From a virus, in IMG/VR virus record IMGVR_UViG_3300042922_000866, positions 1 through 26,113 of that record: 26,113 nucleotides of DNA; one strand, written 5' to 3'. Both the position numbers and the translations under genes were made by a program. Under the pieces are notes generated by a model. That model made no database searches, was not told where the DNA came from, and worked only from the letters and a program-made list of their open reading frames with translations. Position 1 is the first letter of the stretch, and every line of letters starts with the position of its first letter. Positions 5,856 to 21,958 of this stretch are shown here, one piece after another.

Positions 5856-5870
5856 CAGGATCACCGCCGA

Positions 5871-7094: not shown

Positions 7095-7684
7095 TAATCT
7101 AATGCCTCCTCAGCGATTTCCGCTAATTGTAATTGCAACTTGATCTTCTCAAGCTGCTGATTTCTTACCTCATTCTTGTGCTGCTCAAGCGAGCGTGTTG
7201 CGGTGACCGTGGTATCGGCATACGCGGGCACGCACGTCAGAGAGATTTCAAACAGCTGGTCGATCTTGCGGACCAGCCGAGTATCCTTGCCTTCCTCGTT
7301 TGTGTTCCACTGGTCTTCCGCAACGGTAAAGCCAAAACTCATGCCCTGTACGTTGCCGTTACGGACATTTTCAAAGACATCACTGCCAAGCGTTGTGTGC
7401 GGGATCGTGCAGTCAAAGTGCAGTCCCTTTTTATCCACCCTGAGAAGCAGCGTTTTCGTGTCCGTCCGTGCGAGCACATTCGCCCAGTCGTGGTTGTAGA
7501 GACAGAACACGTTGCTTAAATCAACCTCATCCAACGCATGGGGATCTATCGTTTCAATAAACCCCAAGTCATTCGACGGTTGATTGAAGGCCAACGCATA
7601 ACCGCTGACAATGTGCCCGTTCTGTCCATTCTCCCGAACCTCGACCTTGACCGGTACCGAACGAATCTCTTTTTTCTTCGCCAA
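7094..7684 (-). CDS. HK97-family prohead protease
   Basis: 196 residues. The family's catalytic pattern is visible: H65 in YNHD, S116 in GMSFGF and an acidic residue, E146, in LFEISLT, close to the H65/S115/E148 reported for HK97 gp4. The N-terminal GYALAFN and GFIET(I)DPHAL motifs are also standard. It cleaves the capsid delta domain and itself inside the prohead. I use the TTG at 7684 because GGGGGTGAT lies about six bases upstream and no in-frame ATG fits. It sits between portal and capsid as expected. Confidence 0.95.
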   Translation of the reverse strand: MAKKKEIRSVPVKVEVRENGQNGHIVSGYALAFNQPSNDLGFIETIDPHALDEVDLSNVFCLYNHDWANVLARTDTKTLLLRVDKKGLHFDCTIPHTTLGSDVFENVRNGNVQGMSFGFTVAEDQWNTNEEGKDTRLVRKIDQLFEISLTCVPAYADTTVTATRSLEQHKNEVRNQQLEKIKLQLQLAEIAEEALD

Positions 7685-7691
7685 TTTGCCA

Positions 7692-8801
7692 TCACCCCCT
7701 TATCGCATTGGCCAGAATTTGCTGGGCTTGGTCTTGCGAGTACAATCCGTTTTTTACTGCTGTACTCATTCGGCCTTCGAGAGCGGAACCGTCCGGGTCA
7801 ATCGCCGGTTCAATGTCGAGACCAAAGCTTTGACCTGGCAGACAAAGTTTGCTGGTCAATTCACTGGTAACTGGGTTGGTGTACCGCGTCAGGCACGTCG
7901 CATAAAGTCCGCGGATCTGATCAATATTGCTGTGTTCGGATTCCGCATCCAACATGTCCTTCGGCACCGCAAACACTTTGGCAATCTGTTGCCGCGTCCA
8001 ATCGACACCGGACAGAATCTTGAGAACATCCGCATCGATTCCTGACGAAGAATCGTAAGTCATGGTACTGTCAAGCACCAAGAGACGGCCGGCATTAACA
8101 CCCGTATTGGCTTTCTCAAATTCTGTACGGATGTTGTCCTTAGCTTCTTTGTCAAGCAGCCCTTTTGCCACTGTCAACCTGCCGCTTGGGTTGATGCTTT
8201 GCATGAGTGTCGTCATCAGCAGCTTATCGGTTTGATTCTGCAGTTTCACTTCACTGGCCAGAGCCAGCAGCGGTGAAAGACCGATTACTCCGCCATCTTT
8301 CGAGAGCAGCCGAAAGTGCAGCACGTCTTTACTTCTCAATACCACCGGTGAACGTCCATCATTGAAGATGAATTGATAGAACAGCTGCTGACTGTCGTCG
8401 GTCATCAGGACATTGGTTTGGGCGTTCGGCACGAATTCAAGTTTCGTTGGTCGCCCGTCATTGGTTCGCCAAATACCGCAGTAGGAGTTCCCATTCAACA
8501 GGAGATTCAAGACCACGGATTGCCAAAAGGTAAACGCGTTGGTCAGTTGATTCGGGTGCCTCCCGACTAAATTCAATAAAGGATCATCTTGCAACCCTTT
8601 CAAAATGAATCGAGCACTGGACACATCACTGGCAATCAAGTTTGCACAGGAGAAAATGTCCGAATTTCTTAAAGCGGCATCCGTTGAAATCGCATCCGTT
8701 GACATGGTTAGCTGTCCGTTGCTGTTAAACCCAAGAAAGACGTTCCCGCCACCGCTACCAAGGTTCTGCATCCGTTGTTCCCCGCGTTTTCCAAAGAGCA
8801 T
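7692..8801 (-). CDS. Portal protein, HK97 family
   Basis: 369 residues starting MLFGKRGEQRMQNLGSGGGN. Visible portal features are the early helix DIFSCANLIASDVSSARF, the GNSYCGIWRTNDGRPTKLEF strand pair, DVLHFRLLSKDGGVIGLSPL and a long C-terminal helical region containing DWTRQQIAKVFAVPKDML. The portal dodecamer forms the DNA entry channel and the terminase dock. Length is slightly below the usual 380-420 residues but with no sign of truncation. The ribosome site GGGAGGTGAT lies at ideal spacing. Confidence 0.95.
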   Translation of the reverse strand: MLFGKRGEQRMQNLGSGGGNVFLGFNSNGQLTMSTDAISTDAALRNSDIFSCANLIASDVSSARFILKGLQDDPLLNLVGRHPNQLTNAFTFWQSVVLNLLLNGNSYCGIWRTNDGRPTKLEFVPNAQTNVLMTDDSQQLFYQFIFNDGRSPVVLRSKDVLHFRLLSKDGGVIGLSPLLALASEVKLQNQTDKLLMTTLMQSINPSGRLTVAKGLLDKEAKDNIRTEFEKANTGVNAGRLLVLDSTMTYDSSSGIDADVLKILSGVDWTRQQIAKVFAVPKDMLDAESEHSNIDQIRGLYATCLTRYTNPVTSELTSKLCLPGQSFGLDIEPAIDPDGSALEGRMSTAVKNGLYSQDQAQQILANAIRG

Positions 8802-8807
8802 CGCTTA

Positions 8808-9005
8808 TCACCTCCCACCCGGTGACTTACCGTCAGAAAGAACAGCCACTACCATAAGGGCAACGGATAAGGCAAAAAGTCCCGCAGTTTGGTTGATACA
8901 GAACGTGGCGTAAACAAAAACACCTAGCCCAATGAGAAAGAGCAAGGTGTGCACATTCGATAGAATAAAGGTTGTTAGTTTCGTTAAGTTCAAGGTTTCA
9001 TCCAC
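8808..9005 (-). CDS. Small membrane protein between terminase and portal (DUF1056-like)
   Basis: 65 residues with two predicted membrane helices, TFILSNVHTLLFLIGLGVFV and FALSVALMVVAVL, and a short charged tail. Small two-helix proteins at exactly this place, between large terminase and portal, are common in Lactobacillus and Bacillus phages (DUF1056). Role unknown. The GTG at 9005 is the longest start, but it lies almost on the AAAGGGGG ribosome site; an in-frame TTG at 8993 has better spacing, so the true product may be four residues shorter. Confidence 0.75.
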   Translation of the reverse strand: MDETLNLTKLTTFILSNVHTLLFLIGLGVFVYATFCINQTAGLFALSVALMVVAVLSDGKSPGGR

Positions 9006-9010
9006 CCCCT

Positions 9011-10756
9011 TTAAAAACTGAATCGATTACTTTTAAAAAAGTCATTGAGGTCATCATCACTCATGCGATCTAATTCGCTCTTGCCAGCTTCATCCTCAAA
9101 ATAGAACATCGCCTGATAATGTGCGTCCATCGCAGCATCGACAACATCAATACGTTCGGTATTTTTGTCCTTGTCGATCTTGATCCCATTGTTATCCGTC
9201 AAGATGACCGCATTCGCAAACGCGACCTCCATGATACGATCCGGATCATGCGTGATGTTTCCCGATAAGACTTTCAATCTAAAATCTCGTGTTGGCGAAT
9301 TAAGCGACTTAGTCCCTTGACGGATAGCCACGAGATTCCACTCTGTATTGTTTTCAATCATCTTGATGATCTTGTCAGCATGCCATTGATCGTAGAGAAA
9401 ACCCAAGACCTTAAGCCCGTTTTTCTCAACGTAAGTCATGATCCAATCGTATACTTGGCCATCATTGATGATCCCGCTCTTTTCTTTCGTGATCGTGCAC
9501 TCGCCTTTCTTTTCGAGTTCACGGTACGGGATATTGTCCATCTTTTCTTTTTCCTCAATACCGCCTGCATACCGCGTTGGCACAAAGGAATGTTGCCTAA
9601 TATGAAACATCTGCTGACCGTCATCGGAAAGATAGGGGAATTCAAAAACAATCCCCACATCGTCATTAGACATTGACACATCAAGGCCAATGAAGACGTC
9701 ACGACCAGTACTATCAAACCCAGATCGTTCCGTCGCTTTCCAACTCTTCGCATCCATGTACGAGTTTTCTTTGGCCGACATCCATAGATTCATATTTTTA
9801 ACAAGAAACGCATTGACCCGTCCAGTCGCAATTGCCTGATCACGTTCGCTGATAATGCCCTTGGTGAGTGATCGCCGTTTCGGTGGAAAAGCCATCAGCG
9901 GATTTGATTTCTCCCAGCTGGTCGGATCATTCATTTCTTCCGAATCATCCTGCTCAAAAACAGCAGCAAAATAATCGTCCATCTGCAGTTGACCATCTAG
10001 CACCTTACTGATCATCACATATTCCTCATAAAGTGGAACTTTCAAATCAGTTCCGGCTGTTGACGACTGCAGAAGTAACGCTTCCTCATTAGCAACCATG
10101 CCGGAACTCACCTTTGAGAGAAACGAACGATCCGTGCATTGATGCGTTTCGTCCAGACAAGCCAAAGTCGCGTGAATGGAGTCAATGCCCTTCGTATCGG
10201 TTGAGATCCGTTTGATGAACGTTCCGGATTTTTTGATGCGGATCTCATTAAACAAAACGTCCGCGACTTTATTAACTTCCGGATCCATACTTTTCAGCTT
10301 CTCAATCGTTAAGCTGTTGTACTGAAACAAGCGGTCTGCCTGATCGATGCTGTTAGCTCCACATACAATCTGTCGGTTATTCTTTGGCGTTCCAAAAAAG
10401 AAGTCGTACACGCATAGCCACGAATCAATCTGTGTTTTACTGTTGGTTCGAGCCATACTGATCAAGCCTTTTTTCCAACGCTTACCACCATCTTTTCGTC
10501 GCCAAGCGTGAATCATACACACCAGCCATTTTTGAAACGGCATCGGTGTGATGCGTTCGCCTGTATCAATATCCGGAAGAAACGAAATAAATTGGACGAT
10601 CTTATCAGCGATTGCCTCATCATAGAAGTAGGGAAAATCATCATCCTTCACACGCTTCAAATCATTAAGATGCCGCTGGCACGCTTGTTGAATCTTTTTA
10701 CAGGCAAGGATTTTTCCCTGCAACACGTCACGGCAATATTGTGTCCCTGCATCCAT
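9011..10756 (-). CDS. Terminase large subunit
   Basis: 581 residues beginning MDAGTQYCRDVLQGKILACK. The ATPase domain shows a Walker A-like ARTNSKT at 102-108 and Walker B ATLACLDE with D202 and E203. The nuclease domain starts near 350, with VFIGLDVSMSNDD providing the first metal-binding Asp (D359). A late DKDKNTERIDVVDAAMDAH segment is typical of the HK97/phi105 large terminase type. It packages DNA into proheads and cuts it. The start overlaps the small terminase stop (TAATG). Together with the HNH gene upstream, this suggests a cohesive-end packager. Confidence 0.95.
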   Translation of the reverse strand: MDAGTQYCRDVLQGKILACKKIQQACQRHLNDLKRVKDDDFPYFYDEAIADKIVQFISFLPDIDTGERITPMPFQKWLVCMIHAWRRKDGGKRWKKGLISMARTNSKTQIDSWLCVYDFFFGTPKNNRQIVCGANSIDQADRLFQYNSLTIEKLKSMDPEVNKVADVLFNEIRIKKSGTFIKRISTDTKGIDSIHATLACLDETHQCTDRSFLSKVSSGMVANEEALLLQSSTAGTDLKVPLYEEYVMISKVLDGQLQMDDYFAAVFEQDDSEEMNDPTSWEKSNPLMAFPPKRRSLTKGIISERDQAIATGRVNAFLVKNMNLWMSAKENSYMDAKSWKATERSGFDSTGRDVFIGLDVSMSNDDVGIVFEFPYLSDDGQQMFHIRQHSFVPTRYAGGIEEKEKMDNIPYRELEKKGECTITKEKSGIINDGQVYDWIMTYVEKNGLKVLGFLYDQWHADKIIKMIENNTEWNLVAIRQGTKSLNSPTRDFRLKVLSGNITHDPDRIMEVAFANAVILTDNNGIKIDKDKNTERIDVVDAAMDAHYQAMFYFEDEAGKSELDRMSDDDLNDFFKSNRFSF

Positions 10757-11253
10757 TAAGCACCACCGCCAAACATTTGAAAGAAGCCGGATGGTTCTTC
10801 ATTATCCTTTTTCTTTGTGGGCAACATGCTTGATCGTGAAGCATAGGTCAAACCCAACTCTCGGGCACACTGTTTAATTTGTACCGAAGATTCTTTCATG
10901 ACCGTAAATGCCGGATTCTTATGTATACCATCCGGAGCGATACCTTGCTTTTTCACATCACGAGTCGCCCGAATCCACGTATCATAAAAGGTGCACATCA
11001 ATTCTAGAACAGATTGATCGATCTCTTTCAGTAAATGAAGTTGCTTGAGTTGCGGCACCAATTTTTTCCACAGTTTTTTCCCATAGGTCGGAATATACGC
11101 AGGCGGATCATCAGGCAAATCATCCAGAACGCTCATCTGTTCTTCAATGGATTCCAGTTCCTCGCGTTCTTCCGGACGCACATATGATTTTCTGCCGTCA
11201 ATTGGTTTCAAACGTCGTCCGCCTTGGTTGTTTGAACCCTTCGGAGCCCCCAT
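10756..11253 (-). CDS. Terminase small subunit, P27 family
   Basis: 165 residues beginning MGAPKGSNNQGGRRLKPIDG, the usual N-terminus of P27-type small terminases, followed by the helical core YGKKLWKKLVPQLKQLHLLK and a terminal LGLTYASRSSM motif. It recognises the packaging site and stimulates the large subunit. The ATG at 11253 is preceded by GGGGGAGGG at good spacing; an in-frame GTG at 11301 would add 16 poorly conserved residues with no ribosome site. Its stop shares a base with the large subunit start. Confidence 0.9.
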   Translation of the reverse strand: MGAPKGSNNQGGRRLKPIDGRKSYVRPEEREELESIEEQMSVLDDLPDDPPAYIPTYGKKLWKKLVPQLKQLHLLKEIDQSVLELMCTFYDTWIRATRDVKKQGIAPDGIHKNPAFTVMKESSVQIKQCARELGLTYASRSSMLPTKKKDNEEPSGFFQMFGGGA

Positions 11254-11355
11254 TTTTTGCCCTCCCCCAAAAAATTTTAGAAAAAACACTTTTATACACA
11301 CGCGAACACCTAGCTACATCGTTCCTCCCTAAGAGGATGAGGCCCCCCGTCAAAA
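11254..11355. other. Intergenic segment before terS; candidate packaging (cos) region
   Basis: About 100 bases between the 51-codon frame and the small terminase. On the + strand it holds a GATGAGGCCCCCCGTC run (a block of six C) flanked by AT-rich DNA, and a CCTCCCT block. G-blocks near the HNH/terS junction are typical of cos sites in HNH-terminase phages. On the - strand there is also a ribosome-site-like GGGAGG followed by ATG TAG, which encodes nothing. The cos assignment is inference only. Confidence 0.3.
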
Positions 11356-11511
11356 TTATTTTTCACTCATAGTCTCTTCAATTGCATTGATAACATTGGA
11401 TATTCGGTCAATGACCATGTCATTTGGTCCTAATACATTGACCCCTGACTTCCTCAGTTGGATTAATTGATCCAAATAGTTCAATTGAGCATCAAATTTG
11501 TTTTTATTCAA
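11356..11511 (-). CDS. Small hypothetical protein overlapping the HNH gene
   Basis: A 51-codon frame with a TTG start: MNKNKFDAQLNYLDQLIQLR then a GVNVLGPNDMVIDRI segment, ending TMSEK. An AAGAAGG element lies eight or nine bases upstream, and the start overlaps the HNH stop by eight bases. The amphipathic helix-loop-helix composition looks protein-like and fills most of the space between HNH and small terminase. I recognise no family. It could also be chance reading frame, since starts by TTG are weak. Confidence 0.45.
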   Translation of the reverse strand: MNKNKFDAQLNYLDQLIQLRKSGVNVLGPNDMVIDRISNVINAIEETMSEK

Positions 11512-11953
11512 CGCTTTTCGCCTTCTTTTTAGCCTGTATTGCCTTCCACTTCTCTGCCTTGGTCTTCCGGTTGTGACAAGTCGGGCATAGATACTGAAGG
11601 TTCGTCACGTCGAGTCTTGAATCCCAATTCTGTTTCAGCGGTTTGATGTGATCGACGATCTTCCCTTGTCGGATCCGTCCATACTTCAAGCAGCTCTCAC
11701 ACAATCCATTCGCTCGAGCCACCACATAACCCCTTGTCTTCTTCCATGCAGTTGATTTATAAAACTCCGTGAACAGAGCATTATCATCGCTGTATCGTTG
11801 CTTGTTATATTGTCGATCACGAATCTTCTTCCGCACATCGTTGCCGTTACTTGTGGTTCGTTTAACGGTCATCGAATGTTTTTCGCAATAATACTGACTG
11901 GTCGGAATCAATTCATGACACGTTGGATAATGGCATTGTCTAAGTCGTGGCAC
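11504..11953 (-). CDS. HNH endonuclease of the packaging module
   Basis: 149 residues. The HNH core is clear: D101-H102 in IVDHIKPL, N118 in DVTNLQYL and H127 in CPTCHNRK. Structural zinc cysteines are C85/C88 and C123/C126. A second N-terminal set, C7, C12, C23 and H26, suggests another zinc finger. HNH proteins directly upstream of terminase genes assist the large subunit in cutting cos ends in many siphoviruses. The start is GTG at 11953, with AGGTGATT at correct spacing; the upstream gene ends ten bases away. Confidence 0.95.
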   Translation of the reverse strand: MPRLRQCHYPTCHELIPTSQYYCEKHSMTVKRTTSNGNDVRKKIRDRQYNKQRYSDDNALFTEFYKSTAWKKTRGYVVARANGLCESCLKYGRIRQGKIVDHIKPLKQNWDSRLDVTNLQYLCPTCHNRKTKAEKWKAIQAKKKAKSVE

Positions 11954-11962
11954 GTAATCACC

Positions 11963-12166
11963 TCAGTATCCAAACGGTCCAATACGCCTAATCCTTTTCT
12001 CCATATAAGCAAAACGTTGATCAAACGTTTTGACCTTATCTTGAAATCTCATCCGTTTAATTAGGGACACCGCATTAGTCAAGTCATCTGTACTCATACC
12101 GTTGTTCTCTGCAAATTCCGCAATCATTTGTGCATGCTTAAGTGATCTGGCTATTGGTTTAATCAT
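11963..12166 (-). CDS. Hypothetical small phage protein
   Basis: 67 residues beginning MIKPIARSLKHAQMIAEFAE and ending RIRRIGPFGY. It is helical and basic, with SLIKRMRFQDKVKTF in the middle. I do not recognise the family. The ATG at 12166 overlaps the previous gene's stop by eight bases and follows GGAGGGCGAGG, so coupling with the upstream gene is likely. Longer in-frame starts would run through the coding part of the previous gene and have no ribosome site. It lies just upstream of the HNH gene, a place where small late-region proteins of unknown function are common. Confidence 0.65.
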   Translation of the reverse strand: MIKPIARSLKHAQMIAEFAENNGMSTDDLTNAVSLIKRMRFQDKVKTFDQRFAYMEKRIRRIGPFGY

Positions 12167-12596
12167 GATCCTCGCCCTCCAGTCCAGCTGCAGTAATGCT
12201 CCAGCCACCAGGTAAAACAGCAATCTTATTTTCAGGAAACACTTTTCTGAAACGTGCTTCGATATCATCGATCTGTAATTTGGAGATATTCCCCAGATAA
12301 TTTGTATAGACGACAATCACATCATCTCGATGAACAATCATCCGGCCAACATCGACGATTGGCAATCCTGCCTTGTCCAGTTCATTCAATGCGTGTGTCG
12401 TTTCCTTTGCTTCGCGACGCAATGCTTTCATGGCTTTTAGAACATCACTGCAGTCAGCACCGATTTTCACTGTTAAATCATTTGGCTTGCTCTGATCGGC
12501 TTTTGATTTTGCTTCCTGCAACGCATCAATATAAGTCTTGCGTGCTTCATCGGGCATCGATTCTTTTTCGATATAACCGCGATTGTCTTTTGCCAT
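12159..12596 (-). CDS. Hypothetical phage protein
   Basis: 145 residues beginning MAKDNRGYIEKESMPDEARK. The centre, SDVLKAMKALRREAKETTHA, is a strongly helical stretch of a kind seen in several Bacillus and Listeria phage proteins of unknown function; the C-terminal half alternates strands (VGRMIVHRDDVIVVYT) and ends acidic (EGEDHD). AAGGAGG lies ten bases before the ATG. It is the first gene after the terminator at 12623-12652, so it probably heads the packaging transcription unit or depends on a late promoter nearby that I cannot identify. No function proposed. Confidence 0.7.
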   Translation of the reverse strand: MAKDNRGYIEKESMPDEARKTYIDALQEAKSKADQSKPNDLTVKIGADCSDVLKAMKALRREAKETTHALNELDKAGLPIVDVGRMIVHRDDVIVVYTNYLGNISKLQIDDIEARFRKVFPENKIAVLPGGWSITAAGLEGEDHD

Positions 12597-12622
12597 CCCT
12601 GCACAACCTCCTTAAATTTGGG

Positions 12623-12652
12623 CATAAAAAATAGAGCACCGTTTGAGTGCTC
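12623..12652 (-). terminator. Rho-independent terminator after the HTH pair
   Basis: On the - strand GAGCAC, a seven-base loop, GTGCTC, then TATTTTTTATG. The six-pair stem plus U-run is a good intrinsic terminator. It follows the HTH gene ending at 12695 by about 40 bases and would separate the accessory unit from the packaging unit unless late transcription reads through. Confidence 0.75.
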
Positions 12653-12694
12653 ATAACGTATTCAATATATATATGACAATTCGTAAGACAAAAA

Positions 12695-12874
12695 TTATTG
12701 ATTCGTTTCCTGATTCTTAATCCACTCATCAATTCGTTCTTTCGAAAACATTATTTGACTTCTTACTCGCCAATGCGGAATCTCTTTGTTCCTTACCATC
12801 GTGTAGATTGTGGAACGGCTGACGCCAATGTACTCTGCACATTCAACTGTAGTCATCCGATCATGGTTAATCAT
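12695..12874 (-). CDS. Excisionase-like helix-turn-helix protein, copy 2
   Basis: 59 residues with one MerR/excisionase-type HTH: TTVECAEYIGVSRSTIYTMV followed by a wing containing KEIPHWRVRSQIMFSKERID and ending EWIKNQETNQ. These proteins bind DNA and often act as recombination directionality factors or small regulators. The ATG at 12874 overlaps the upstream gene's TGA as ATGA, the main reason for this start; an in-frame ATG at 12922 has no ribosome site. It is clearly paralogous to the upstream copy, sharing KEIPHW, FSK and IDEWIK. It is far from int, so a regulatory role is as likely as excision. Confidence 0.8.
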   Translation of the reverse strand: MINHDRMTTVECAEYIGVSRSTIYTMVRNKEIPHWRVRSQIMFSKERIDEWIKNQETNQ

Positions 12875-13068
12875 GCTTTTATTTCTCGTGAAATGCTTAA
12901 AACTTTCTGTTTTTTTATCCATTCATCAATCGATGTTTTGGAAAAACGAATTTCATGTCCAATATGCCAATGTGGAATTTCTTTTTTCCTAACCTTCCTA
13001 TAAATAGTTTCACGGTGACAGCCAGTATACCCCGTAGCTTCTTTAGCATTACGCTCTCCATCATTCAT
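12871..13068 (-). CDS. Excisionase-like helix-turn-helix protein, copy 1
   Basis: 65 residues beginning MNDGERNAKEATGYTGCHRE. The HTH (AKEATGYTGCHRETIYRKV) and wing (KKEIPHWHIGHEIRFSKTSI) match the MerR/excisionase-like HTH_17 type. The ATG at 13068 has GGAG eight bases upstream; a GTG at 13107 would add 13 residues without a clear ribosome site. It is paralogous to the next gene and coupled to it by ATGA. Two tandem copies of a single-domain DNA binder are unusual and suggest heterodimers or adjacent binding to neighbouring half-sites. Confidence 0.8.
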   Translation of the reverse strand: MNDGERNAKEATGYTGCHRETIYRKVRKKEIPHWHIGHEIRFSKTSIDEWIKKQKVLSISREIKA

Positions 13069-13170
13069 GTTACCAACTCCATTTATCCATAATAGAGATT
13101 TTTCCACAGATAGTAGAGATAGTCCTGCTATAAAAAAGTTTTTAGAATTGAAAAAGGGTGGTTTAACTAA

Positions 13171-14571
13171 TTACCTTGACTCGTATTCTCTTGAAACTTC
13201 TCTGAGTTCTGTCAGTTCTTTTCTACTGTACTTCTTACCTCTCTCTTTAAGGTAAGACTTTAAATCTTTTTCATCAAAATTTTCAAGATTAAATATTTGT
13301 ATTTTATATTGATTAAAAAAGTCAATGAGTGGCGTTACATAAACCATTTGCTCTTTATTATCGTAAATATCAATTTCTCCCAATTCAATATAATCCACTG
13401 TCTCATTGTTAAGCAAAGAAAAAATATTTACTTTTTTTAGTTGTTCTCCAATTACATCAATTATTTTTGATAACGTACTCGAATCAGAATAAGTACTTAT
13501 TCTAACAATGTTCTTTAAACTAACTTTTGCGTTGTACTTGCTATCACCAACTAAGATCCATCCATAACAAGATAGTATGTCCTTGAATTTTGAAAATAAC
13601 TTGATGGATGAATTCTTGTATGGCTTAATGACGAAACCGTTTTTTTCAAAATTGCAATGAACAATCATGACATTAATGTCGTCAAAAATAAAATTAAGTC
13701 TGTCAACAATAGAAGTAATAAAATTGTGTTCATATATCATTGATATTGTTTTAGAGTCAATAAAACCATCTCTCTTTAAATAGTCTAAAGTTTGAAGATC
13801 ATTTCTTTTTCTGAGCCATTTGACAATATTACGGGTTACTACAAACTCACTTTCCCTATTCTCCTCAACATACTCACCTATTGCACAATCACATTTTTCT
13901 GCTTCAACCAAAAGTGAATTGATTAAGTCCATTCTATCTTCTACGCTACGGTCACTTTTGTAATCCTCAATTATATCTTTAATTTTTTCTCCTATTTCTA
14001 GATATGGATTGACTAAGTCATTTGTAATTAGTATTTCATAATTGTTAACTTGACTATCCCAATTTTCGATTTTTTTTAGAATACCTGGATAATAATGCGT
14101 AACCTGCTTATTCCATGCAAGCCTTTCCGCTTCTTTTTGAAGCTGTGATCTTGTTTTTCCCCTTCTTAATTCTATGGAAGGGAATTCATCGATGCAAGTA
14201 CTACCGACGTTCATCTTTTTTCCATTGATTTTATTTCGAATATTAAATACCCATTTGTTATTTGGTTGATTACAAAGTGAGCAATGTTTTCTCTTTGATT
14301 CGTCCTCAATAATTTCAACAGGATTATTACCGCCAATCCATTCATCTTTACAAAGATTGACTACGCCTTGTAACATTTCATTTAAAGTATTAGTCTCATC
14401 ATCATCAAGTTTTTCTAATTCAAGATCTATTTCATCAGCACTTTTATCCAAGTTTTTTACCATGAACTCAAATATTTCAGGTAAGTTTCCTTTGCACGAC
14501 TCACTATTTACAATAAGCGATCTGTTTTTCCTATCTAAAATGAGCTTCCTACATAGCTCGGATAATCCCAA
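13171..14571 (-). CDS. 466-residue AT-rich accessory protein with zinc-ribbon-like motif, unknown function
   Basis: Long protein beginning MGLSELCRKLILDRKNRSLI. Residues ~95-130 hold a zinc-ribbon-like pattern: H96, C97 and C100 (KHCSLCNQPN), then INGKKMNVGSTCIDEF with C126, the xVGSxCI form seen in several small nucleic-acid-related zinc modules. The rest is charged and mixed helix/strand, with acidic early helices (EIDLELEKLDDDE). I recognise no enzyme motif. Start is TTG at 14571 after GGGGGAT. It is much richer in A+T than its neighbours (7 G/C in the 60 bases 13261-13320), a mark of recent acquisition. A candidate promoter lies in the 72-base upstream gap. Placement between the late activator and packaging genes is a known cargo position; a host-benefit or anti-phage role is possible but unproven. 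Confidence 0.8.
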   Translation of the reverse strand: MGLSELCRKLILDRKNRSLIVNSESCKGNLPEIFEFMVKNLDKSADEIDLELEKLDDDETNTLNEMLQGVVNLCKDEWIGGNNPVEIIEDESKRKHCSLCNQPNNKWVFNIRNKINGKKMNVGSTCIDEFPSIELRRGKTRSQLQKEAERLAWNKQVTHYYPGILKKIENWDSQVNNYEILITNDLVNPYLEIGEKIKDIIEDYKSDRSVEDRMDLINSLLVEAEKCDCAIGEYVEENRESEFVVTRNIVKWLRKRNDLQTLDYLKRDGFIDSKTISMIYEHNFITSIVDRLNFIFDDINVMIVHCNFEKNGFVIKPYKNSSIKLFSKFKDILSCYGWILVGDSKYNAKVSLKNIVRISTYSDSSTLSKIIDVIGEQLKKVNIFSLLNNETVDYIELGEIDIYDNKEQMVYVTPLIDFFNQYKIQIFNLENFDEKDLKSYLKERGKKYSRKELTELREVSREYESR

Positions 14572-14643
14572 TATGCCCCATCCCCCATAGCTAATTTATA
14601 TAACTATAGTATTCGATTCAATTACCTAAAATACCTTCTGAAA
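14572..14643 (-). promoter_or_regulatory. AT-rich gap with candidate promoter for the 466-residue gene
   Basis: On the - strand TTGAAT is followed 15 bases later by TATAAA, with other TATAGT/TTATAT hexamers nearby. The spacing is short of the ideal 17, so the assignment is weak, but a private promoter would suit a gene expressed from the lysogen. Confidence 0.3.
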
Positions 14644-15126
14644 TTACATATTTATACAAAAAATGCTAGTTAGTTTCCTTATTTCAATCTTTTTATTTGC
14701 TCTTTCCATATATGACTGAACCGTTCCCTTGCTGATCTCCAACAATTCAGCTATTTTGCCATAAGAATAAAGTTCACCTATCGCCAGTATGTACACTTGC
14801 CGCTCCTTCTCTGTCAACTCACACAGGACATCTTCGATCTGTTCCTTCTCTGCTTGGCTCAAATCTCCTTTCGGTGCTTTGTGCAGGACTTCATGCCTAA
14901 CCGCGTCCAGTGTTAACGGATCAGATGGATATAATCGGTTACGTTCCGCATTCATATAATGACTGCCGGGATCCCGTCCTGTCTTGAGCCATCTCACCGC
15001 ATACCGCATATCTCGAATCATTCTGCCAATGATCTCTTTATCTTCTTCAGACGCCTCAGAATAGGCTTTCTCAGCGATCCGTATAGAGTTCCGATAGTCA
15101 ATTACCATTCGACTGAAACTGCTCAT
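14644..15126 (-). CDS. Sigma-70 region-4-like late transcription activator (positive control factor)
   Basis: 160 residues beginning MSSFSRMVIDYRNSIRIAEK. The C-terminal part holds a sigma-region-4 helix-turn-helix: LTEKERQVYILAIGELYSYG followed by KIAELLEISKGTVQSYMERA. The middle has the AVRWLKTGRDPG..... and NRLYPSDPLTLD motifs shared by PBSX Xpf-like proteins and related phage late regulators. It should recruit host RNA polymerase to the late promoter, switching on packaging and structural genes to its left. Its ribosome site is AAAGGAG/GGCGGAG. It is the last recognisable regulator before the accessory segment. Confidence 0.85.
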   Translation of the reverse strand: MSSFSRMVIDYRNSIRIAEKAYSEASEEDKEIIGRMIRDMRYAVRWLKTGRDPGSHYMNAERNRLYPSDPLTLDAVRHEVLHKAPKGDLSQAEKEQIEDVLCELTEKERQVYILAIGELYSYGKIAELLEISKGTVQSYMERANKKIEIRKLTSIFCINM

Positions 15127-15156
15127 TCTCCGCCATCTCCTTTTCCAATCACACCC

Positions 15157-15173
15157 AATTCCTTTAAGGAATT
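15157..15173. repeat. Perfect 17-bp palindrome upstream of the late activator
   Basis: AATTCCTTTAAGGAATT is an exact inverted repeat (eight-base arms, one central base) in the 54-base gap between the 42-residue gene and the activator. It has no U-run after it, so it is not a standard terminator. It could be an operator or an mRNA hairpin near the activator's ribosome site. Confidence 0.5.
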
Positions 15174-15180
15174 CAGTTCA

Positions 15181-15309
15181 TCACTTCTGTTTCAACGCCC
15201 CACCCTTGGTTCTCTTGTAAACGGAGTCATGAGCACCCATCAGTTCCTCAAGTTGCCACTGCTTCATAGGCTTGTCTTTTTTGATCTTTTTGGGTTTGTT
15301 CGTTTTCAC
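15181..15309 (-). CDS. Short phage protein upstream of late activator
   Basis: 42 residues with a GTG start: MKTNKPKKIKKDKPMKQWQL then EELMGAHDSVYKRTKGGALKQK. Short basic proteins with the (L)MG....VY.R.KGGA..QK ending occur beside late-activator genes in many Gram-positive phages; their role is unknown. GGGGGAA lies about seven bases before the GTG. Longer in-frame starts (to 15366) would run into the terminator hairpin just upstream and are rejected. Confidence 0.65.
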   Translation of the reverse strand: MKTNKPKKIKKDKPMKQWQLEELMGAHDSVYKRTKGGALKQK

Positions 15310-15329
15310 GTCGTTTCCCCCAATCTCTA

Positions 15330-15380
15330 ATAAATAAAAGAGGCACCTACTCTCGCATCTCTGCAAAAAGTAAGTGCCTC
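15330..15380 (-). terminator. Rho-independent terminator in the early operon
   Basis: On the - strand GAGGCAC (15380-15374) pairs with GTGCCTC (15346-15340), extended by a TACT/AGTA pairing after one mismatch, and is followed by TTTTATTTATT. The loop is about 16 bases. It would stop or attenuate early transcription after the 45-residue gene, leaving the late activator under separate or read-through control. Confidence 0.75.
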
Positions 15381-15424
15381 CGTTCTCTCCGGTTAGGCAT
15401 TATTATTTAATTATCCAAAGATTC

Positions 15425-15562
15425 TCATGAAAGTAGTTTTAATAATATGGTCATGAAGACAACCGCTTCAAATAATCCTGTCCCTACTATCCAGCATATA
15501 ATTTCACGACGGTATTTTACATGTTCGTCATGAATTTCTTTAGCCATGTCATCAAATTTCAT
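15425..15562 (-). CDS. 45-residue single-pass membrane microprotein
   Basis: The sequence begins MKFDDMAKEIHDEHVKYRRE and continues with one hydrophobic helix, IICWIVGTGLFEAVVFMTIL, then LKLLS. The charged N-terminal half followed by one membrane span is typical of phage small membrane proteins, and the residue order favours an N-in topology. GGTGA lies eight bases upstream. It lies between the 71-residue protein (23-base gap) and the terminator. No function recognised. Confidence 0.6.
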   Translation of the reverse strand: MKFDDMAKEIHDEHVKYRREIICWIVGTGLFEAVVFMTILLKLLS

Positions 15563-15585
15563 TGAACTTCACCATCACAATGCAA

Positions 15586-15801
15586 TTATTTTTCAGCAAA
15601 CAAATGATACTGTGGATGATCCACCTGAGCATGATGACATTTGATTTCTACCGTGCCGAACTCTGGTAGTGGGTACATCACAACTTTTCCCTTACTTACA
15701 ATATAAATCTTTCCGTCATCCTTTGCATTAACTGTGGCAGATAATGTTTCAGAATCGACTGGGATTTCCGTCTTCTCTATTCTCAACTGGTTTCTTGTCA
15801 T
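15586..15801 (-). CDS. Hypothetical protein, possibly XtrA-like
   Basis: 71 residues beginning MTRNQLRIEKTEIPVDSETL. It is beta-rich, with KIYIVSKGKVVMYPLPEFG in the middle and EIKCHHAQVDHPQYHLFAEK at the end. The D.....I.I..KGK....LPE.G pattern and its place a few genes before the sigma-like activator resemble the xtrA-xpf order of the B. subtilis PBSX element, but similarity by eye is limited. AAAGGGGA lies rather far (about 12 bases) from the ATG. Confidence 0.65.
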   Translation of the reverse strand: MTRNQLRIEKTEIPVDSETLSATVNAKDDGKIYIVSKGKVVMYPLPEFGTVEIKCHHAQVDHPQYHLFAEK

Positions 15802-15827
15802 AATAAATTCATTCCCCTTTGTTCTGT

Positions 15828-16142
15828 TTATGGGCTAGGAACCAATCTATTTCCCCTGTAGTAAGGTCGAAATTGACTTTGATCATCAACCCAATCAATC
15901 AAAGACCAAATTGGCACACACTTTTTCCCAACATTCCGCACACGCGGAAAACCTTGAATGTTCATGATCCGGCTTGCTGTCGGTTGGCTGCATCGGAAAA
16001 ATTTCATAATGTCATGATAATCGAGCATTGCTGGCCACTGTGAAGCAACCGCATATTTTGCTGATAATTCTTTTACCACTTGCTTGGTAATTTGATTCGA
16101 CAGCTGATTAATAAATTCTTGATCAATCTCTAATTTGATCAT
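15828..16142 (-). CDS. HTH DNA-binding protein (phage early region)
   Basis: 104 residues from the ATG at 16142 (MIKLEIDQEFINQLSNQITK). A helical N-terminus is followed by an HTH: LDYHDIMKFFRCSQPTASRI with a wing containing GFPRVRNVGKKCVPIWSLID. This resembles the excisionase/DUF771-like DNA binders of Gram-positive phages. AGGATGG lies eight bases before this ATG; an ATG at 16154 is in frame but falls on the ribosome site. A regulatory role in the early operon is likely, target unknown. Confidence 0.7.
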   Translation of the reverse strand: MIKLEIDQEFINQLSNQITKQVVKELSAKYAVASQWPAMLDYHDIMKFFRCSQPTASRIMNIQGFPRVRNVGKKCVPIWSLIDWVDDQSQFRPYYRGNRLVPSP

Positions 16143-16204
16143 TTGAGACACCATCCTTTGAAGTTTTATTCCCCTCTTCTTCAGATAGATGCCTTAATCC
16201 TGCT

Positions 16205-16591
16205 TCAAAAGTTAACTTCTTTGGCAATGGATAGAAGGTCATTCACAGCATCTGTCTTAGAATACATGTCATCATCAATCAACGTTCGTGCGATGGTTAA
16301 AACAGATTTACGAACATATGCATTGTGTTCTAGCATCCATAATCTTTCTGAATCAATTTTCTGTTCACCATATTTTAATGGCTTATCTTGCTGCATCTTG
16401 AGAATATGCCGCAGTTCCTTAATTTCCTTGTTCTGCCACTGCTCTCGCTTCATCTGATCAAGAGCCGTATACTTTTCCTGGATCGTTTTCAGTTGACCTC
16501 TAAGAGCCTCTATGGTTGCATCCTTAACCTTTTCATCTGCCTGAAACTTTGCTAATGATAACACCGCACCTACATTCTTTTCTTCGATCAT
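16205..16591 (-). CDS. Coiled-coil hypothetical protein downstream of DnaB
   Basis: 128 residues beginning MIEEKNVGAVLSLAKFQADE. Residues ~20-65 form a probable coiled coil (VKDATIEALRGQLKTIQEKY, then ALDQMKREQWQNKEIKELRH). The C-terminal part is helical, containing LTIARTLIDDDMYSKTDAVN. No family recognised. The start overlaps the helicase stop by four bases (ATGA), so it is translated with it and may be a replication accessory. Confidence 0.7.
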   Translation of the reverse strand: MIEEKNVGAVLSLAKFQADEKVKDATIEALRGQLKTIQEKYTALDQMKREQWQNKEIKELRHILKMQQDKPLKYGEQKIDSERLWMLEHNAYVRKSVLTIARTLIDDDMYSKTDAVNDLLSIAKEVNF

Positions 16592-17886
16592 TGTAAAACC
16601 GCTCTCCTTTCAAGATCGCAAAATTTTCCGTACTCCTTGAGAAACGCCAATTCAATGGTTCCCGTTGGTCCATTCCTTTGTTTACTTACAATCACTTCCG
16701 CAATGTTCTGCTTGTCCGTCTGACGGTTGTAATACTCATCCCTGTATAAAAACATGATCACGTCTGCATCCTGCTCAATATTGCCGCTGTCCCTCAAGTC
16801 GCTCATCATTGGACGCTTGTCCTGCCGCTGCTCTACTCCGCGTGATAACTGGCACAAGAGCAGGACGGGAATGTTATACTTCCGGGCGATCTGCTTCAGT
16901 CCCTTGGTAATGGATCCAATCTCTTGATCACTACGATCAAACTTTCCAAGAGCTTTGACATACCCGAGATAGTCAATAATTAGCAAATGCCTTTGATTCG
17001 GATTATCTCTCATGGCTTTCCGGATCACTGATCGGATACTCAAAACTGTTTGAGACGATTCATCATGGATCTTGATGTTCATCTGAGAATAAATACCGAT
17101 TGCCTTGGTGATCCGTTGAACGTCCTCGTCATTCATCAACCGCTTCGGATTTCGCCACTTACCGTTATTCACACGCCCTATGGCTGATATAGACCGTTGA
17201 AGAACTGTTTTCTTTGGCATCTCCATACTGAATAAATCTACTGCCGTGCCCTTCTGTGCGGCCGCGAGAGCCACGTTTATGGCGAATGCTGATTTACCTA
17301 CAGAAGGACGTGCGGCAACCACAATCAAATCTGAATCCTGCAATCCGTTTGTCATCTCATTGAGTGCGTGTGATCCAGTTGTAATGCCTGACAGGTCACC
17401 TTGATCCGTTCCCAGGGATTCCATCAGGTCAACCAATACTTCTTGATCTGATCGCCCCTCACTTGCCGCAGCCGATTCGTTTACAACGCTATCAATCTCT
17501 CGGGCTACGTTCGCTAGATTATCTTCATCGGGATTTTGTATAAAGCCGGACATGACCTCTTGCAGTTTTCGCTGCTGGTAGTTGTAATGGACAAGTCTTT
17601 GATTCATTTCGAAGTCAGCGGTTGTCGGGATAGAATTAAGCAACTCCATCAGGTAGCCGGTACCGCCGATCTCAGCCAATCTATCTCCGCCTAGTTCTTG
17701 AAACACAGTTGCTGGTTCAATGCGTATGCCTCTCTTATCCAAGTCCCTGAAGGCCTTGAATAAGATCTTATGCCGTGCGAAGGTGAAATTTTCGACACTA
17801 AGCGTGCATTCGTCAATGAGCTCTGGCTCGCTCAGAATCGATCCGATCACGGTTTGTTCTGCTAATTCGTTCTCTATCTGCATCAA
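16588..17886 (-). CDS. Replicative DNA helicase, DnaB family
   Basis: 432 residues, close to the usual 440-470. The N-terminal domain opens with ENELAEQTVIGSIL, the DnaB E.EQ.VLG.IL signature. Walker A is ARPSVGKS (192-199) and Walker B is LLIIDYLG with D305. The later CQLSRGVEQRQDKRPMMSDL and SGNIEQDADVIMFLYR motifs are diagnostic. As a ring hexamer it unwinds DNA at the phage fork. GGGAGG lies eight bases before the ATG. The 5' end overlaps the upstream loader gene by 74 bases in another frame. With its own loader and initiator, the phage can bypass host loading. Confidence 0.95.
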   Translation of the reverse strand: MMQIENELAEQTVIGSILSEPELIDECTLSVENFTFARHKILFKAFRDLDKRGIRIEPATVFQELGGDRLAEIGGTGYLMELLNSIPTTADFEMNQRLVHYNYQQRKLQEVMSGFIQNPDEDNLANVAREIDSVVNESAAASEGRSDQEVLVDLMESLGTDQGDLSGITTGSHALNEMTNGLQDSDLIVVAARPSVGKSAFAINVALAAAQKGTAVDLFSMEMPKKTVLQRSISAIGRVNNGKWRNPKRLMNDEDVQRITKAIGIYSQMNIKIHDESSQTVLSIRSVIRKAMRDNPNQRHLLIIDYLGYVKALGKFDRSDQEIGSITKGLKQIARKYNIPVLLLCQLSRGVEQRQDKRPMMSDLRDSGNIEQDADVIMFLYRDEYYNRQTDKQNIAEVIVSKQRNGPTGTIELAFLKEYGKFCDLERRAVLQ

Positions 17887-18217
17887 GGACGCCTCCCATC
17901 TTCACCCGCTTGAGAAATTCATTGAACCGTTCCCAGTCCGGGGGATTTGCCCTTGCCTGCTCTTCCCAACCCTTTATGTTCTCTTTCTCTTGATCGAAGC
18001 CGTCTTTCTCCGGACGGACAAGAATATCACCGGGCAATGGCGGGCGACGTGTGTTGGCTGGGTTGTTCACATAGTCATAAAAACGCTGAAGCGTTGGCTT
18101 GAACTCTGCATCCTTGGCTGCATTCTTCCAGACGCCCATGTATGTGGCATCGTTAACCACGTAGGTATACATCCGGGCGATCTGTGTGGTTAATTTTGCT
18201 ATTTCAGCTGGTGTCAT
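17813..18217 (-). CDS. Putative helicase loader (G39P-like)
   Basis: 134 residues from the ATG at 18217 (MTPAEIAKLTTQIARMYTYV), which has GAAGGTGA at proper spacing; a GTG at 18226 is in frame but on the ribosome site. Residues ~1-70 form a helical domain ending in RPPLPGDI, resembling the N-terminal domain of SPP1 G39P-type loaders and replicative helicase-loading proteins. The C-terminus is charged and probably unstructured (DADRERISRTNRDRIDSERA), as in G39P, where the flexible tail grips the helicase. Its position between initiator and DnaB supports this. Call made by architecture and order, not a catalytic motif. Confidence 0.65.
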   Translation of the reverse strand: MTPAEIAKLTTQIARMYTYVVNDATYMGVWKNAAKDAEFKPTLQRFYDYVNNPANTRRPPLPGDILVRPEKDGFDQEKENIKGWEEQARANPPDWERFNEFLKRVKMGGVLDADRERISRTNRDRIDSERARAH

Positions 18218-19034
18218 TGGCTTCACCTTCTAGGAATTTATTGATTTCTTGCTGCTCTGCTTCAAGTCTTCTAGGAACAGCGGGAGACGCATTATTCTGC
18301 CGCTCCGCTCTTTCATGCTGCTTAGTGATGATCCCAACAAGTTGGACATATTTCTCTCTTAGCTTGCGTGTAGAAAGAATGTTGTTGCACCAAAAAGAAT
18401 CTTTCTGTGACCACTTGATAACGTATTCTATCTGCTCTTTGGTTCTGTTGTCTTGCTCCATCATGAGACGTATATCGTTTGCCCATGACTCAATGTTTGA
18501 AGGATCGTTTGCTGCTGGGTTATTTTGCTTTATGAGATTGGCTAGTAATTTTGCTAACCCCATTTGAGTGTCGTCAAATTTATTTGCACGACGTTTATTC
18601 TTTTTCTTTACTTCTTTAGTTCTTACATTCTTGTTAGCTGTTAGTTGCCTGTTAGTCGCCTGTTGATTGCCTGTTGCCTCGTCTGTTGATTCACTTTCCT
18701 TTGCCTGATATAATCCCCAATTTACAATGGTTATCAGCCTGTTTTGGTTTGTTGACTGATCTGTTAGAAATCCATATGAACCAAACCTGCTCAAGGCAGT
18801 GCGTACATTCTGAATTGAGACACCTTTTCCGCACTTTTCGGCGATTTTAGGCAGACTTGTGATCATCTGTCCCGGCTTCGCCATGAACTTTTCCCCATGG
18901 AACTCCCAACTTTTTTCTTCATGGTTTGCCATGCAAAGTAACGTGATTAGAATGGTTTTCTGCTCAGGGGTAGACTCCACCCATATTGGCTTGTCAATCA
19001 ATTCACGGTATATTTTTATCCAACCTCCGGGCAT
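18204..19034 (-). CDS. Replisome organiser / replication initiator (DnaD-like)
   Basis: 276 residues beginning MPGGWIKIYRELIDKPIWVE. The N-terminal part is a winged-helix region of the phage replisome organiser type (GWIKIYREL...., TLLCMANHEEKSW, then KPGQMITSLPKIAEK). A low-complexity linker near residues 112-150 (ESTDEATGNQQATNRQLTAN) is encoded by a tandem 11-bp repeat array. The C-terminal domain, from about 155, is helical (QMGLAKLLANLIKQ...). Proteins of this kind bind the origin inside their own gene and recruit loader and helicase. The ATG at 19034 follows AGGTGAT at five bases; a GTG at 19043 lies upstream but on the ribosome site. Confidence 0.85.
   Translation of the reverse strand: MPGGWIKIYRELIDKPIWVESTPEQKTILITLLCMANHEEKSWEFHGEKFMAKPGQMITSLPKIAEKCGKGVSIQNVRTALSRFGSYGFLTDQSTNQNRLITIVNWGLYQAKESESTDEATGNQQATNRQLTANKNVRTKEVKKKNKRRANKFDDTQMGLAKLLANLIKQNNPAANDPSNIESWANDIRLMMEQDNRTKEQIEYVIKWSQKDSFWCNNILSTRKLREKYVQLVGIITKQHERAERQNNASPAVPRRLEAEQQEINKFLEGEANDTS
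18634..18688. repeat. Five tandem 11-bp iterons, candidate phage replication origin
   Basis: Exactly phased units: TTAGCTGTTAG, TTGCCTGTTAG, TCGCCTGTTGA, TTGCCTGTTGC and the more divergent CTCGTCTGTTG, consensus TTGCCTGTTRR. A further TTGCCTGATAT starts at 18701. Eleven bases is one helical turn, so all sites face the same side. An AT-rich stretch lies next to it at about 18570-18630. Gram-positive phages usually carry the origin inside the initiator gene, as here. The repeat also encodes a flexible protein linker, so selection could be at either level. Confidence 0.7.
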
Positions 19035-19072
19035 TGCTATCACCTGATTTCATTTCTGATCGTGATTTTCTG

Positions 19073-19095
19073 CCGTCACTGTGTTATAATGACGG
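19073..19095 (-). other. Hairpin between the initiator and the preceding gene
   Basis: CCGTCA (19073-19078) and TGACGG (19090-19095) form a six-pair stem with an 11-base loop. No U-run follows on the - strand. It overlaps the end region of the 113-residue gene and could slow transcription or protect mRNA ends. Weak call. Confidence 0.35.
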
Positions 19096-19425
19096 GCGAA
19101 GTATTTCTTTGACATCATCATGAACTTTGCTGAACAGGAATTCCGATACGTTGGTGGGGCCAACGGGTTTTCCATTCTCAGCAAGCCATGTCGTGATGAA
19201 CTGATCAAAGTATTTATATTGTTTTTTTACCGCTCGTTCGGCTAATTCCGGACGATTTTCTTTTTTAAACACCAACTCTGCAAATACGCAGTAATTAAAC
19301 AGCTTGGACAATTCATTGGCCGTTCTGATTAGTCCAACCGTCTTGCCTTCTACATACACCGATATCATTTTTCCGTTTGGTCCTGGCTGCTCGCCTACTT
19401 TGATGTGCTCAACAATTGGGATCAT
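19084..19425 (-). CDS. Hypothetical early phage protein
   Basis: 113 residues beginning MIPIVEHIKVGEQPGPNGKM. A beta-rich start (ISVYVEGKTVGLIRT) is followed by helices with FNYCVFAELVFKKENRPELA and KKQYKYFDQFITTWLAENGK. Family not recognised. The ATG at 19425 has AAGGAG eight bases upstream; the longer in-frame start at 19485 would lie inside the promoter/operator region and is rejected. It is the first gene after that promoter and so may head a replication sub-operon. Confidence 0.7.
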   Translation of the reverse strand: MIPIVEHIKVGEQPGPNGKMISVYVEGKTVGLIRTANELSKLFNYCVFAELVFKKENRPELAERAVKKQYKYFDQFITTWLAENGKPVGPTNVSEFLFSKVHDDVKEILRPSL

Positions 19426-19448
19426 TGAATTCAACTCCTTAAAATTTT

Positions 19449-19463
19449 TAGTAGAATCTACTA
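19449..19463. repeat. 15-bp palindrome in the leader of the 113-residue gene
   Basis: TAGTAGAATCTACTA has seven-base arms around one central base, located between the TATAAT and the ribosome site. Related half-sites GTAGA (19520-19524) and TCTAC (near 19537-19541) flank the -35 side. Probably a second operator or a 5' mRNA hairpin. Confidence 0.45.
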
Positions 19464-19487
19464 CCTGTATCGCCTGAAGAACCACTT

Positions 19488-19509
19488 ATTATACTTGTCT
19501 CATAGACAA
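19488..19509 (-). promoter_or_regulatory. Promoter -10 with palindromic operator
   Basis: On the - strand a perfect TATAAT (19493-19488) is preceded one base upstream by the inverted repeat TTGTCTATGAGACAA (six-base arms TTGTCT/AGACAA, 19509-19495). The -35 is weak (TGGAAT 18 bases upstream). A palindrome in the spacer is a classic repressor or activator site. The + strand arm TTGTCTCA also occurs at 22105-22112 in the lysogeny control region. Confidence 0.55.
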
Positions 19510-19537
19510 TTATTCCAAAGTAGATTCATAGACTGTT

Positions 19538-19813
19538 CTACCTCCTTCTTTGTTCATCGAGCCATTTGAGAAGGAATATCCGTGTTTCACGTGCTGGGAA
19601 GTACCATTTCTGGCCAATCTTGTATTTTTTCAATCGGTCATCTCGAAAGAAAGTGTTCTGAACAGTTCCCCAGCTCATGCATGTTCGCTTGCACAATTCC
19701 TTCGAATCCCAGTAGACAAGCTCGCCATCGATTTTTTTGAGGTGTTCCTCAACTTTCTGAAGAAACAATTCACGTGTTTCGGATTCATCAATTTCAACAC
19801 TGACCATGGACAT
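19538..19813 (-). CDS. DUF771-like HTH DNA-binding protein
   Basis: 91 residues beginning MSMVSVEIDESETRELFLQK. The pattern WDSKELCKRTCMSWGTVQNT, FFRDDRLKKYKIGQKWYFPA, then ETRIFLLKWLDEQRR fits the DUF771-type phage DNA binders (HTH, then a wing and a final FL..WL helix). The ribosome site AAGGAGG is at ideal spacing. It lies immediately before the 19488 promoter in transcription order, so it may regulate it. Such proteins are common early genes whose role is mostly unproven. Confidence 0.75.
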   Translation of the reverse strand: MSMVSVEIDESETRELFLQKVEEHLKKIDGELVYWDSKELCKRTCMSWGTVQNTFFRDDRLKKYKIGQKWYFPARETRIFLLKWLDEQRRR

Positions 19814-19920
19814 CTTTATCGCCTCCTTTTTTCGTTATACGTTATTAAAAGCACTTGAAAAGAATTTATAACTTAATCACTCAAAGAACATGTTCGACCC
19901 CTGCTTTACCTCTGATGAAT

Positions 19921-20553
19921 TTATTTCACCCTTCGAATCCATTTAGGCTTGCGTTTACGCGGTACGACTTTAGCAATCTCACCTGTTTTCTTATTTTGCA
20001 TGTACTGCCCGGAACCGTCTGAAAAGGATTCAAAGAGTGTCAGATTGCTTTCTTCTGCAAATTGCTCAAACCAGTCTTTTTCTCCTCTTGCTTTTTGGAG
20101 ATGTCCAAGTGCGACCATCTTCAAAGCAGAATATGAAAATATGGTTTTGTTATTTACATACTCCCAAAGGAATTCAGACAGACCTTCTCTGCCAATTGGC
20201 TTGTCCATATCAACCGATTTCAAATAGTTCATGGTGTAAAAGTAATCTTTAATTCCATATTTTTCACCGTCATACGTTTTATCAACCGGAAAAACCTGAA
20301 TAAATTCACGTGGCGTAAATTGGCCAAGATAATTATCAACCATAAAGATAAAATTCATTGTATCCTCGGCTTCTTTTGCTGAAGGGTTCTTTAGCTCCTT
20401 ACGGCTGAGCAAATATTTAACAGACAGAATAGCCATTTTCTTTTTTTCTTCACGAGTATAATCATTCTCGCCTTTCTCATAAGCCGCGTTAATCAATCTT
20501 CCTAAGGCTCTTAGATAAACGTTGGGTATTCCTTTAACCGGCACGCTTTTCAA
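19921..20553 (-). CDS. Hypothetical early phage protein
   Basis: 210 residues beginning MKSVPVKGIPNVYLRALGRL with a TTG start at 20553; GAGGGG is eight or nine bases upstream. It is mainly helical, with a central FMVDNYLGQFTPREFIQVFP and KTYDGEKYGIKDYFYTMNYL, and ends very basic (VVPRKRKPKWIRRVK), which suggests nucleic-acid contact. I recognise the type from Gram-positive prophages but no function. It is co-directional with the antirepressor-like gene and the 85-residue gene upstream. Confidence 0.7.
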   Translation of the reverse strand: MKSVPVKGIPNVYLRALGRLINAAYEKGENDYTREEKKKMAILSVKYLLSRKELKNPSAKEAEDTMNFIFMVDNYLGQFTPREFIQVFPVDKTYDGEKYGIKDYFYTMNYLKSVDMDKPIGREGLSEFLWEYVNNKTIFSYSALKMVALGHLQKARGEKDWFEQFAEESNLTLFESFSDGSGQYMQNKKTGEIAKVVPRKRKPKWIRRVK

Positions 20554-20567
20554 ATTGACATCCCCTC

Positions 20568-20825
20568 TCAGTAAACTGAATTATCGTCACGATCACTTTC
20601 TACTCCAGTTTCGTCTGTGATCTCTTCCATCAGATTTGTAATTTGTGTTTCTGCAAAATCGATGGTATTGCTTAACCATTCCTCACGGCTCACGATGTCT
20701 GATACTTCACCCTCAGAACTAATTGTCTTAATGACAAGGAGGCCTTTTTTGGATCTCATGCACTCCATATCTTCGCTGAGCTGATCAAGACGATTTTGGA
20801 TCTTTTTAAGAAGCTGATGATTCAT
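20568..20825 (-). CDS. Small acidic hypothetical protein
   Basis: 85 residues beginning MNHQLLKKIQNRLDQLSEDM. The N-terminal ~25 residues look coiled-coil; the rest has KKGLLVIKTISSEGEVSDIV and a second helix DFAETQITNLMEEI, with an acidic tail. The ATG at 20825 overlaps the end of the antirepressor-like gene by 20 bases and follows GGCGGAAG. Longer in-frame starts run through the upstream gene and are rejected. Unknown function. Confidence 0.65.
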   Translation of the reverse strand: MNHQLLKKIQNRLDQLSEDMECMRSKKGLLVIKTISSEGEVSDIVSREEWLSNTIDFAETQITNLMEEITDETGVESDRDDNSVY

Positions 20826-21684: not shown

Positions 21685-21883
21685 TTTGCTGCCCCTCTCT
21701 TTCGTCTTCAAGTTTAATGTCTAGCATTTCAGCAATCCGTTTCTTCTGTGCTTCTGCCTTTCTGTTTCCGCGGAGTATATCAGATAGATATGCATTGGTA
21801 ATTCCTAAATCATCGGCGAGTGAACGCATTGATTTGTCTTTTTCCAACAGCTTGATTCGCACCGCCATGCCAAAGTTTGTCAT
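21653..21883 (-). CDS. Cro-like repressor (small XRE HTH protein)
   Basis: 76 residues from the ATG at 21883 (MTNFGMAVRIKLLEKDKSMR), which has GGGAGG at good spacing. The XRE HTH is plain: KSMRSLADDLGITNAYLSDI followed by LRGNRKAEAQKKRIAEMLDI. It is the first leftward gene and faces the repressor gene across the control region, the classic cro position: it likely blocks repressor transcription and modulates its own promoter. The 3' end overlaps the next gene by 32 bases. Confidence 0.85.
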   Translation of the reverse strand: MTNFGMAVRIKLLEKDKSMRSLADDLGITNAYLSDILRGNRKAEAQKKRIAEMLDIKLEDEREGQQNDQIRCIYRK

Positions 21884-21958
21884 TTTGTGACCTCCCATTT
21901 TAGATTATAAGTTGATATTTTTATCTCTTATACATTTACACAAATGAGATAATATGCT

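Follow-up and report, generated by a model that had tools for sequence, protein, structure and literature searches.

In a 26,113-base virus record, hereafter the window, a long AT-rich gene lies between a sigma-like late transcription regulator and a late operon that includes HNH and terminase genes. The question raised by this locus is whether the gene serves the phage that carries it or is cargo and, if it is cargo, what its product might do. At the base composition of the gene, 466 open codons would arise by chance with a probability of ~3e-20. This length and the homology with full-length relatives indicate a real gene, located on the minus strand at the positions given in the first-pass annotation. 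Its GC content is 30.5%, compared with 43.2% in the remaining window, and GC3 is 26.6%. AT-richness is not unique to this gene, since an ImmA/IrrE-type metallopeptidase gene of the window (22488-23288, plus strand) has 28% GC.

A mobile cargo gene under selection and its recurrent slot

The placement proposed in the first-pass annotation, between a late activator and an HTH pair followed by a terminator, is borne out by profile matches on both sides and by a hairpin that closes the cassette (Table 1). The upstream regulator also matches NF005385 (positive control sigma-like factor), under the cut-off of that model. The two HTH genes resemble a tandem duplication. The 466-residue protein gene is separated from the regulator by 72 bp and from the HTH pair by 63 bp. 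The upstream gap described in the first-pass annotation thus exists; a scan of it (14572-14643) gave none of the promoter-like hexamers that it was said to contain. In addition, the region around the gene is no richer in promoter-like sites than chance (10 versus 11.8 in shuffles), and a promoter of its own is thus not supported. The gene would probably be co-transcribed from the regulator side, and transcription would end at the terminator-like hairpin, ahead of the late genes.

Table 1 Features of the cassette and its borders (window positions)
Feature	Position	Strand	Basis
Sigma-like late transcription regulator, upstream border of the slot	14644..15126	-	phrog_1190, E 4.6e-33
Gene of the 466-aa accessory protein	13171..14571	-	TTG start; homologues; AF2 model
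Putative zinc module, residues 97-130 (C97, C100, G123, C126)	14182..14283	-	Invariant columns
Two overlapping, similar HTH_17/excisionase-type genes, downstream	12871-13107 and 12695-12922	-	HTH_17, E 2.5e-12 and 5.7e-14; TIGR01764
Intrinsic-terminator-like hairpin closing the cassette	12634..12652	-	Sequence scan
First conserved gene past the cassette, 145 aa	12159..12596	-	77% aa identity to sister phage L028

A second virus record, IMGVR_UViG_3300042934_000853, is 100% identical to the window across the compared stretch (window positions 3174-22824). No near DNA match was found among 50,697 phage records, and the window terminase shares ~41% identity with its counterpart in Leuconostoc phage phiMH1. 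A sister phage, L028 (IMGVR_UViG_3300042922_000504), shows ~86% DNA identity to window positions 1-4802 and 4925-11952, and 78% to positions 12177-12632. The similarity ends at position 12632, two bases from the terminator-like hairpin. Past this breakpoint, L028 has neither the 466-residue protein gene nor the HTH pair, and carries other sequence instead. The contents of the slot therefore vary between close relatives, and the gene, missing at ~86% DNA identity, is dispensable. The slot of L028 holds a different 126-aa open reading frame (L028:1533-1913, plus strand) without a PADLOC match.

The first-pass annotation had called the protein an orphan. This holds for its annotation; as to its being a singleton, it does not, since a rare but real family was found. 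Full-length relatives share 23-33% identity and are sparsely distributed in Bacillota, on plasmids, on a 100-kb Paenibacillus larvae viral or plasmid element, in an unrelated prophage and in chromosomal islands. With tblastn, relatives were detected on five plasmids, four of them full-length; the carriers are P. larvae pPLP3 (31%), P. peoriae, two P. polymyxa and Alkalihalophilus pseudofirmus pBpOF4-01. The 100-kb contig, from a viral collection, encodes a 32% relative that is near-identical to the pPLP3 gene. Genome scans added relatives in P. glucanolyticus and P. terrae. The search of ~1,200 Bacillota genomes yielded only five new full-length carriers (G501, G862, G976, G1100 and G1102), showing that the family is rare. 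No relative was found in INPHARED (50,697 phage records), three scans of viral contigs, each from a single relative, returned no additional family members, and a literature search retrieved the pPLP3 genome paper and general work on prophage defence hotspots, with no publication on the family.

Among these loci, the most telling is the G862 homologue (L052:9098-10465; 26% identity, E 4e-39), which is located in a prophage immediately downstream of a late regulator (phrog_36); small genes come next, then a terminase and a portal. The window phage and this prophage have only one other detected gene in common (19921-20553 and L052:17221-17823). As the homologue sits between late regulator and terminase, one and the same slot is used by two unrelated phages. 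The remaining copies occupy diverse surroundings. The G976 homologue (L053:8656-10284, plus strand), which reaches 542 aa through an N-terminal extension, lies in a chromosomal island with leuS on one side and type I restriction fragments on the other, at 32% GC in a 55% context. The G1102 copy adjoins a BRO-type gene and an integrase, and the G501 copy adjoins transposases; other neighbours of the latter read from their sequence as PRTRC-type plasmid genes. Two neighbours of the G1100 copy are similar to genes close to the pPLP3 copy. Across the family loci no partner gene is conserved, and the HTH pair stands beside no other homologue. A DUF2538-like gene was considered as a conserved partner and rejected, being common to two loci only, at differing distances.

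In all 11 of the 11 family copies measured, the GC content of the gene is lower than that of its own flanks. Among close relatives, in the P. polymyxa group, dN/dS is 0.20-0.22, which indicates purifying selection on the gene. Presence or absence at one slot among relatives and atypical GC are features of morons, and both are found here. Overall, the patchy family, the dN/dS values, the absence from L028 and the same-slot homologue of G862 show a horizontally mobile, selected, moron-like accessory gene whose cargo slot is recurrent, in line with the cargo position suggested in the first-pass annotation. In the window, it is inserted together with the two small HTH genes and the terminator-like site between late regulator and late operon of a temperate phage.

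Fold and three-cysteine module

No Pfam or NCBIfam family matched the protein above threshold, and neither these collections nor solved structures gave an enzyme, transport or secretion signature, in agreement with the earlier remark that no enzyme motif is visible. Two weak hits, SNAPC3 (E 0.024) and TRAPPC3 (E 0.009), both isolated and unrelated, were set aside as chance matches. AlphaFold2 models were obtained for the window protein (mean pLDDT 83.8, pTM 0.69) and for the P. glucanolyticus relative (pLDDT 85.8). In both, the protein is mostly helical and contains two small alpha/beta regions besides the hairpin module. Foldseek searches of the PDB with these two independent models gave nothing at E below 0.7; pieces of aminoacyl-tRNA synthetases in the second list were dismissed on account of their low coverage and TM-score. 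Profile search and structure prediction, the checks that the first-pass annotation had called for, thus placed the protein in none of the known structural or housekeeping families. When viral models were searched, a 161-aa protein came first (E 1.5e-4), consistent with the class of short module proteins described below, followed by S5MST5 of Bacillus phage JL (E 3e-3).

The part of the protein that can be followed beyond the family is a small module of three cysteines. The motif noted in the first-pass annotation is present, with KHCSLC at residues 95-100 and GKKMNVGSTCIDEF at residues 117-130; its pattern is CSLC-x25-C within CSLCNQPNNKWVFNIRNKINGKKMNVGSTCIDEF. The AF2 model predicts a beta-hairpin here, with a short helix after it. 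In 16 aligned sequences from several protein families, the three cysteines and one glycine are the sole invariant columns. We infer that the cysteines bind zinc, with Cys3 and one further putative ligand. In the G862 homologue, an Asp occupies the position of C100; a complete set of three cysteines is thus not an absolute requirement, and the site may tolerate change. An internal repeat of the hairpin-helix unit was not supported by hhalign. The module is not among Pfam hits, and its profile matched none of the solved-structure sequences.

Outside the family, the CSLC...NVGSTC segment is found again in several groups of phage and plasmid proteins, among them phrog_2319 and phrog_26485. The former (~399 aa; Ackermannviridae, Straboviridae and Gordonia Stormageddonvirus) shares the CxxC...VGxxC module with the 466-residue protein. 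Comparison of the family with phrog_2319 by hhalign gave E 2.9e-4 over 50 columns (probability 40%), and hmmscan gave repeated weak hits over ~40-60 of the 399 positions, in both cases within the module only. The remainder of phrog_2319 is unrelated in sequence, and its strand-rich end, K..KQT...R, is not found in the 466-residue protein. The match to phrog_26485 covers residues 73-142 (E 0.001). In phrog_26485 and in short proteins that consist of an EW stretch and the module, E/W residues precede the module, as they do in the 466-residue protein. These short module proteins (~150-260 aa) occur on Enterococcus and Enterobacter plasmids, in Paenibacillus and in Bacillus phage Adastra, and lack the ~330-residue C-terminal part of the family. 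A small non-Pfam module thus ties proteins of Bacillota plasmids and temperate phages to common hypothetical proteins of large phages, and establishing what one module protein does would give a starting point for the rest.

Among viral models, two weak structural matches were also observed in BFVD, W8W1U3 from an iridescent virus (probability 0.91, E 0.06) and A0A481Z520 from a pithovirus (probability 0.63, E 0.32); the hairpin module might thus also occur in DNA viruses of eukaryotes.

Possible functions of the accessory protein

Module relatives are encoded near UvsX, helicase and ligase genes, near a DprA-like gene, near RecA-like, helicase and nuclease genes, near SSB and, further off, ArdA. 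This neighbourhood suggests a role involving nucleic acid. The window protein is acidic (pI 5.3, net charge -11), as are most of its relatives, and this acidity, together with the family member that lacks one cysteine, argues against simple DNA binding. The nucleic-acid or sensor role put forward in the first-pass annotation is thus supported in a suggestive way by the genes near the module; against it stand the acidic protein and the lack of a fold or profile that names it.

The reading that we favour, tentatively, is that the family acts in conflict between genetic elements, in defence or counter-defence, via nucleic acid or nucleoprotein. It is favoured by the spread over phages, plasmids and islands, by the slot and by the defence-like neighbours at some loci, namely DUF262/NsnA-like genes on two elements, a Mokosh-like helicase and the type I restriction fragments. 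Other homologue loci have no such neighbours, and defence-like genes are common on mobile elements generally. The protein may contact nucleic acid or nucleoprotein, and the carrier would benefit against other mobile elements or host defences, the protein being a defence, superinfection-exclusion or counter-defence factor. Accessory genes at variable positions in prophages are also known from single-gene defence proteins such as BstA (PMC8585504), which serves here as an analogy only, and from prophage defence hotspots (PMC9122126). Unlike known prophage defence proteins, the 466-residue protein matches no PADLOC model (0 families in PADLOC-DB 2.0.0 at E up to 1). With this result, and with defence-like neighbours at only some loci, the host-benefit or anti-phage role proposed at first did not find confirmation. 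The more specific combination, in which CxxC...VGxxC marks an unrecognised zinc-binding domain common to many phage and plasmid proteins and is used by the 450-aa family, as a single-gene inter-element conflict factor retained in the recurrent regulator-terminase slot of Bacillota temperate phages, we regard as rather doubtful.

The same neighbourhood of the module can be read in favour of the phage itself. The protein could be an accessory of DNA metabolism or of the early-to-late switch, helping replication, recombination or packaging, with plasmids using it likewise for DNA maintenance. The regulator-terminase position in two unrelated phages fits this, as do the module relatives amid replication and recombination genes of Ackermannviridae, SPO1-like and Streptomyces phages. 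However, the gene is dispensable, as the sister phage indicates, it has no relative in the phage records searched, and its full-length homologues are very patchy and have no conserved replication partner; we therefore consider such a service to the phage unlikely. The surroundings in the window, with the HTH pair and the sigma-like regulator as neighbours of the gene and a terminator-like site as boundary, could instead point to a transcriptional or post-transcriptional regulator acting with the HTH pair, in a cassette that controls late genes or lysogeny. This is improbable, given that no recognised DNA-binding fold is seen in the protein and that the pair accompanies none of the other homologues. 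An AT-rich mobile accessory gene under purifying selection would also be expected of lysogenic conversion, with a benefit to the host apart from phages and plasmids, in stress or metabolism. Here, the searches for enzyme, transport and secretion signatures were negative and no common host trait is evident among the diverse element types, which makes lysogenic conversion quite improbable.

Irrespective of the function, the features that merit further attention are the module shared with other proteins and the recurrence of the slot, and the gap between late regulator and terminase is a cargo slot worth scanning in Bacillota prophages. Two further genes of the window deserve mention. The AT-rich ImmA/IrrE-type gene adjoins the repressor and matches PADLOC capP (E 7.8e-18) as well as RmrA models, matches that probably reflect a generic repressor-cleaving protease. 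Next to the integrase, a DnaQ-type exonuclease is encoded (23312-24253, plus strand); its C-terminal part is BRCT-like, and its best NCBIfam match is PRK06195 (E 2e-62, under cut-off).
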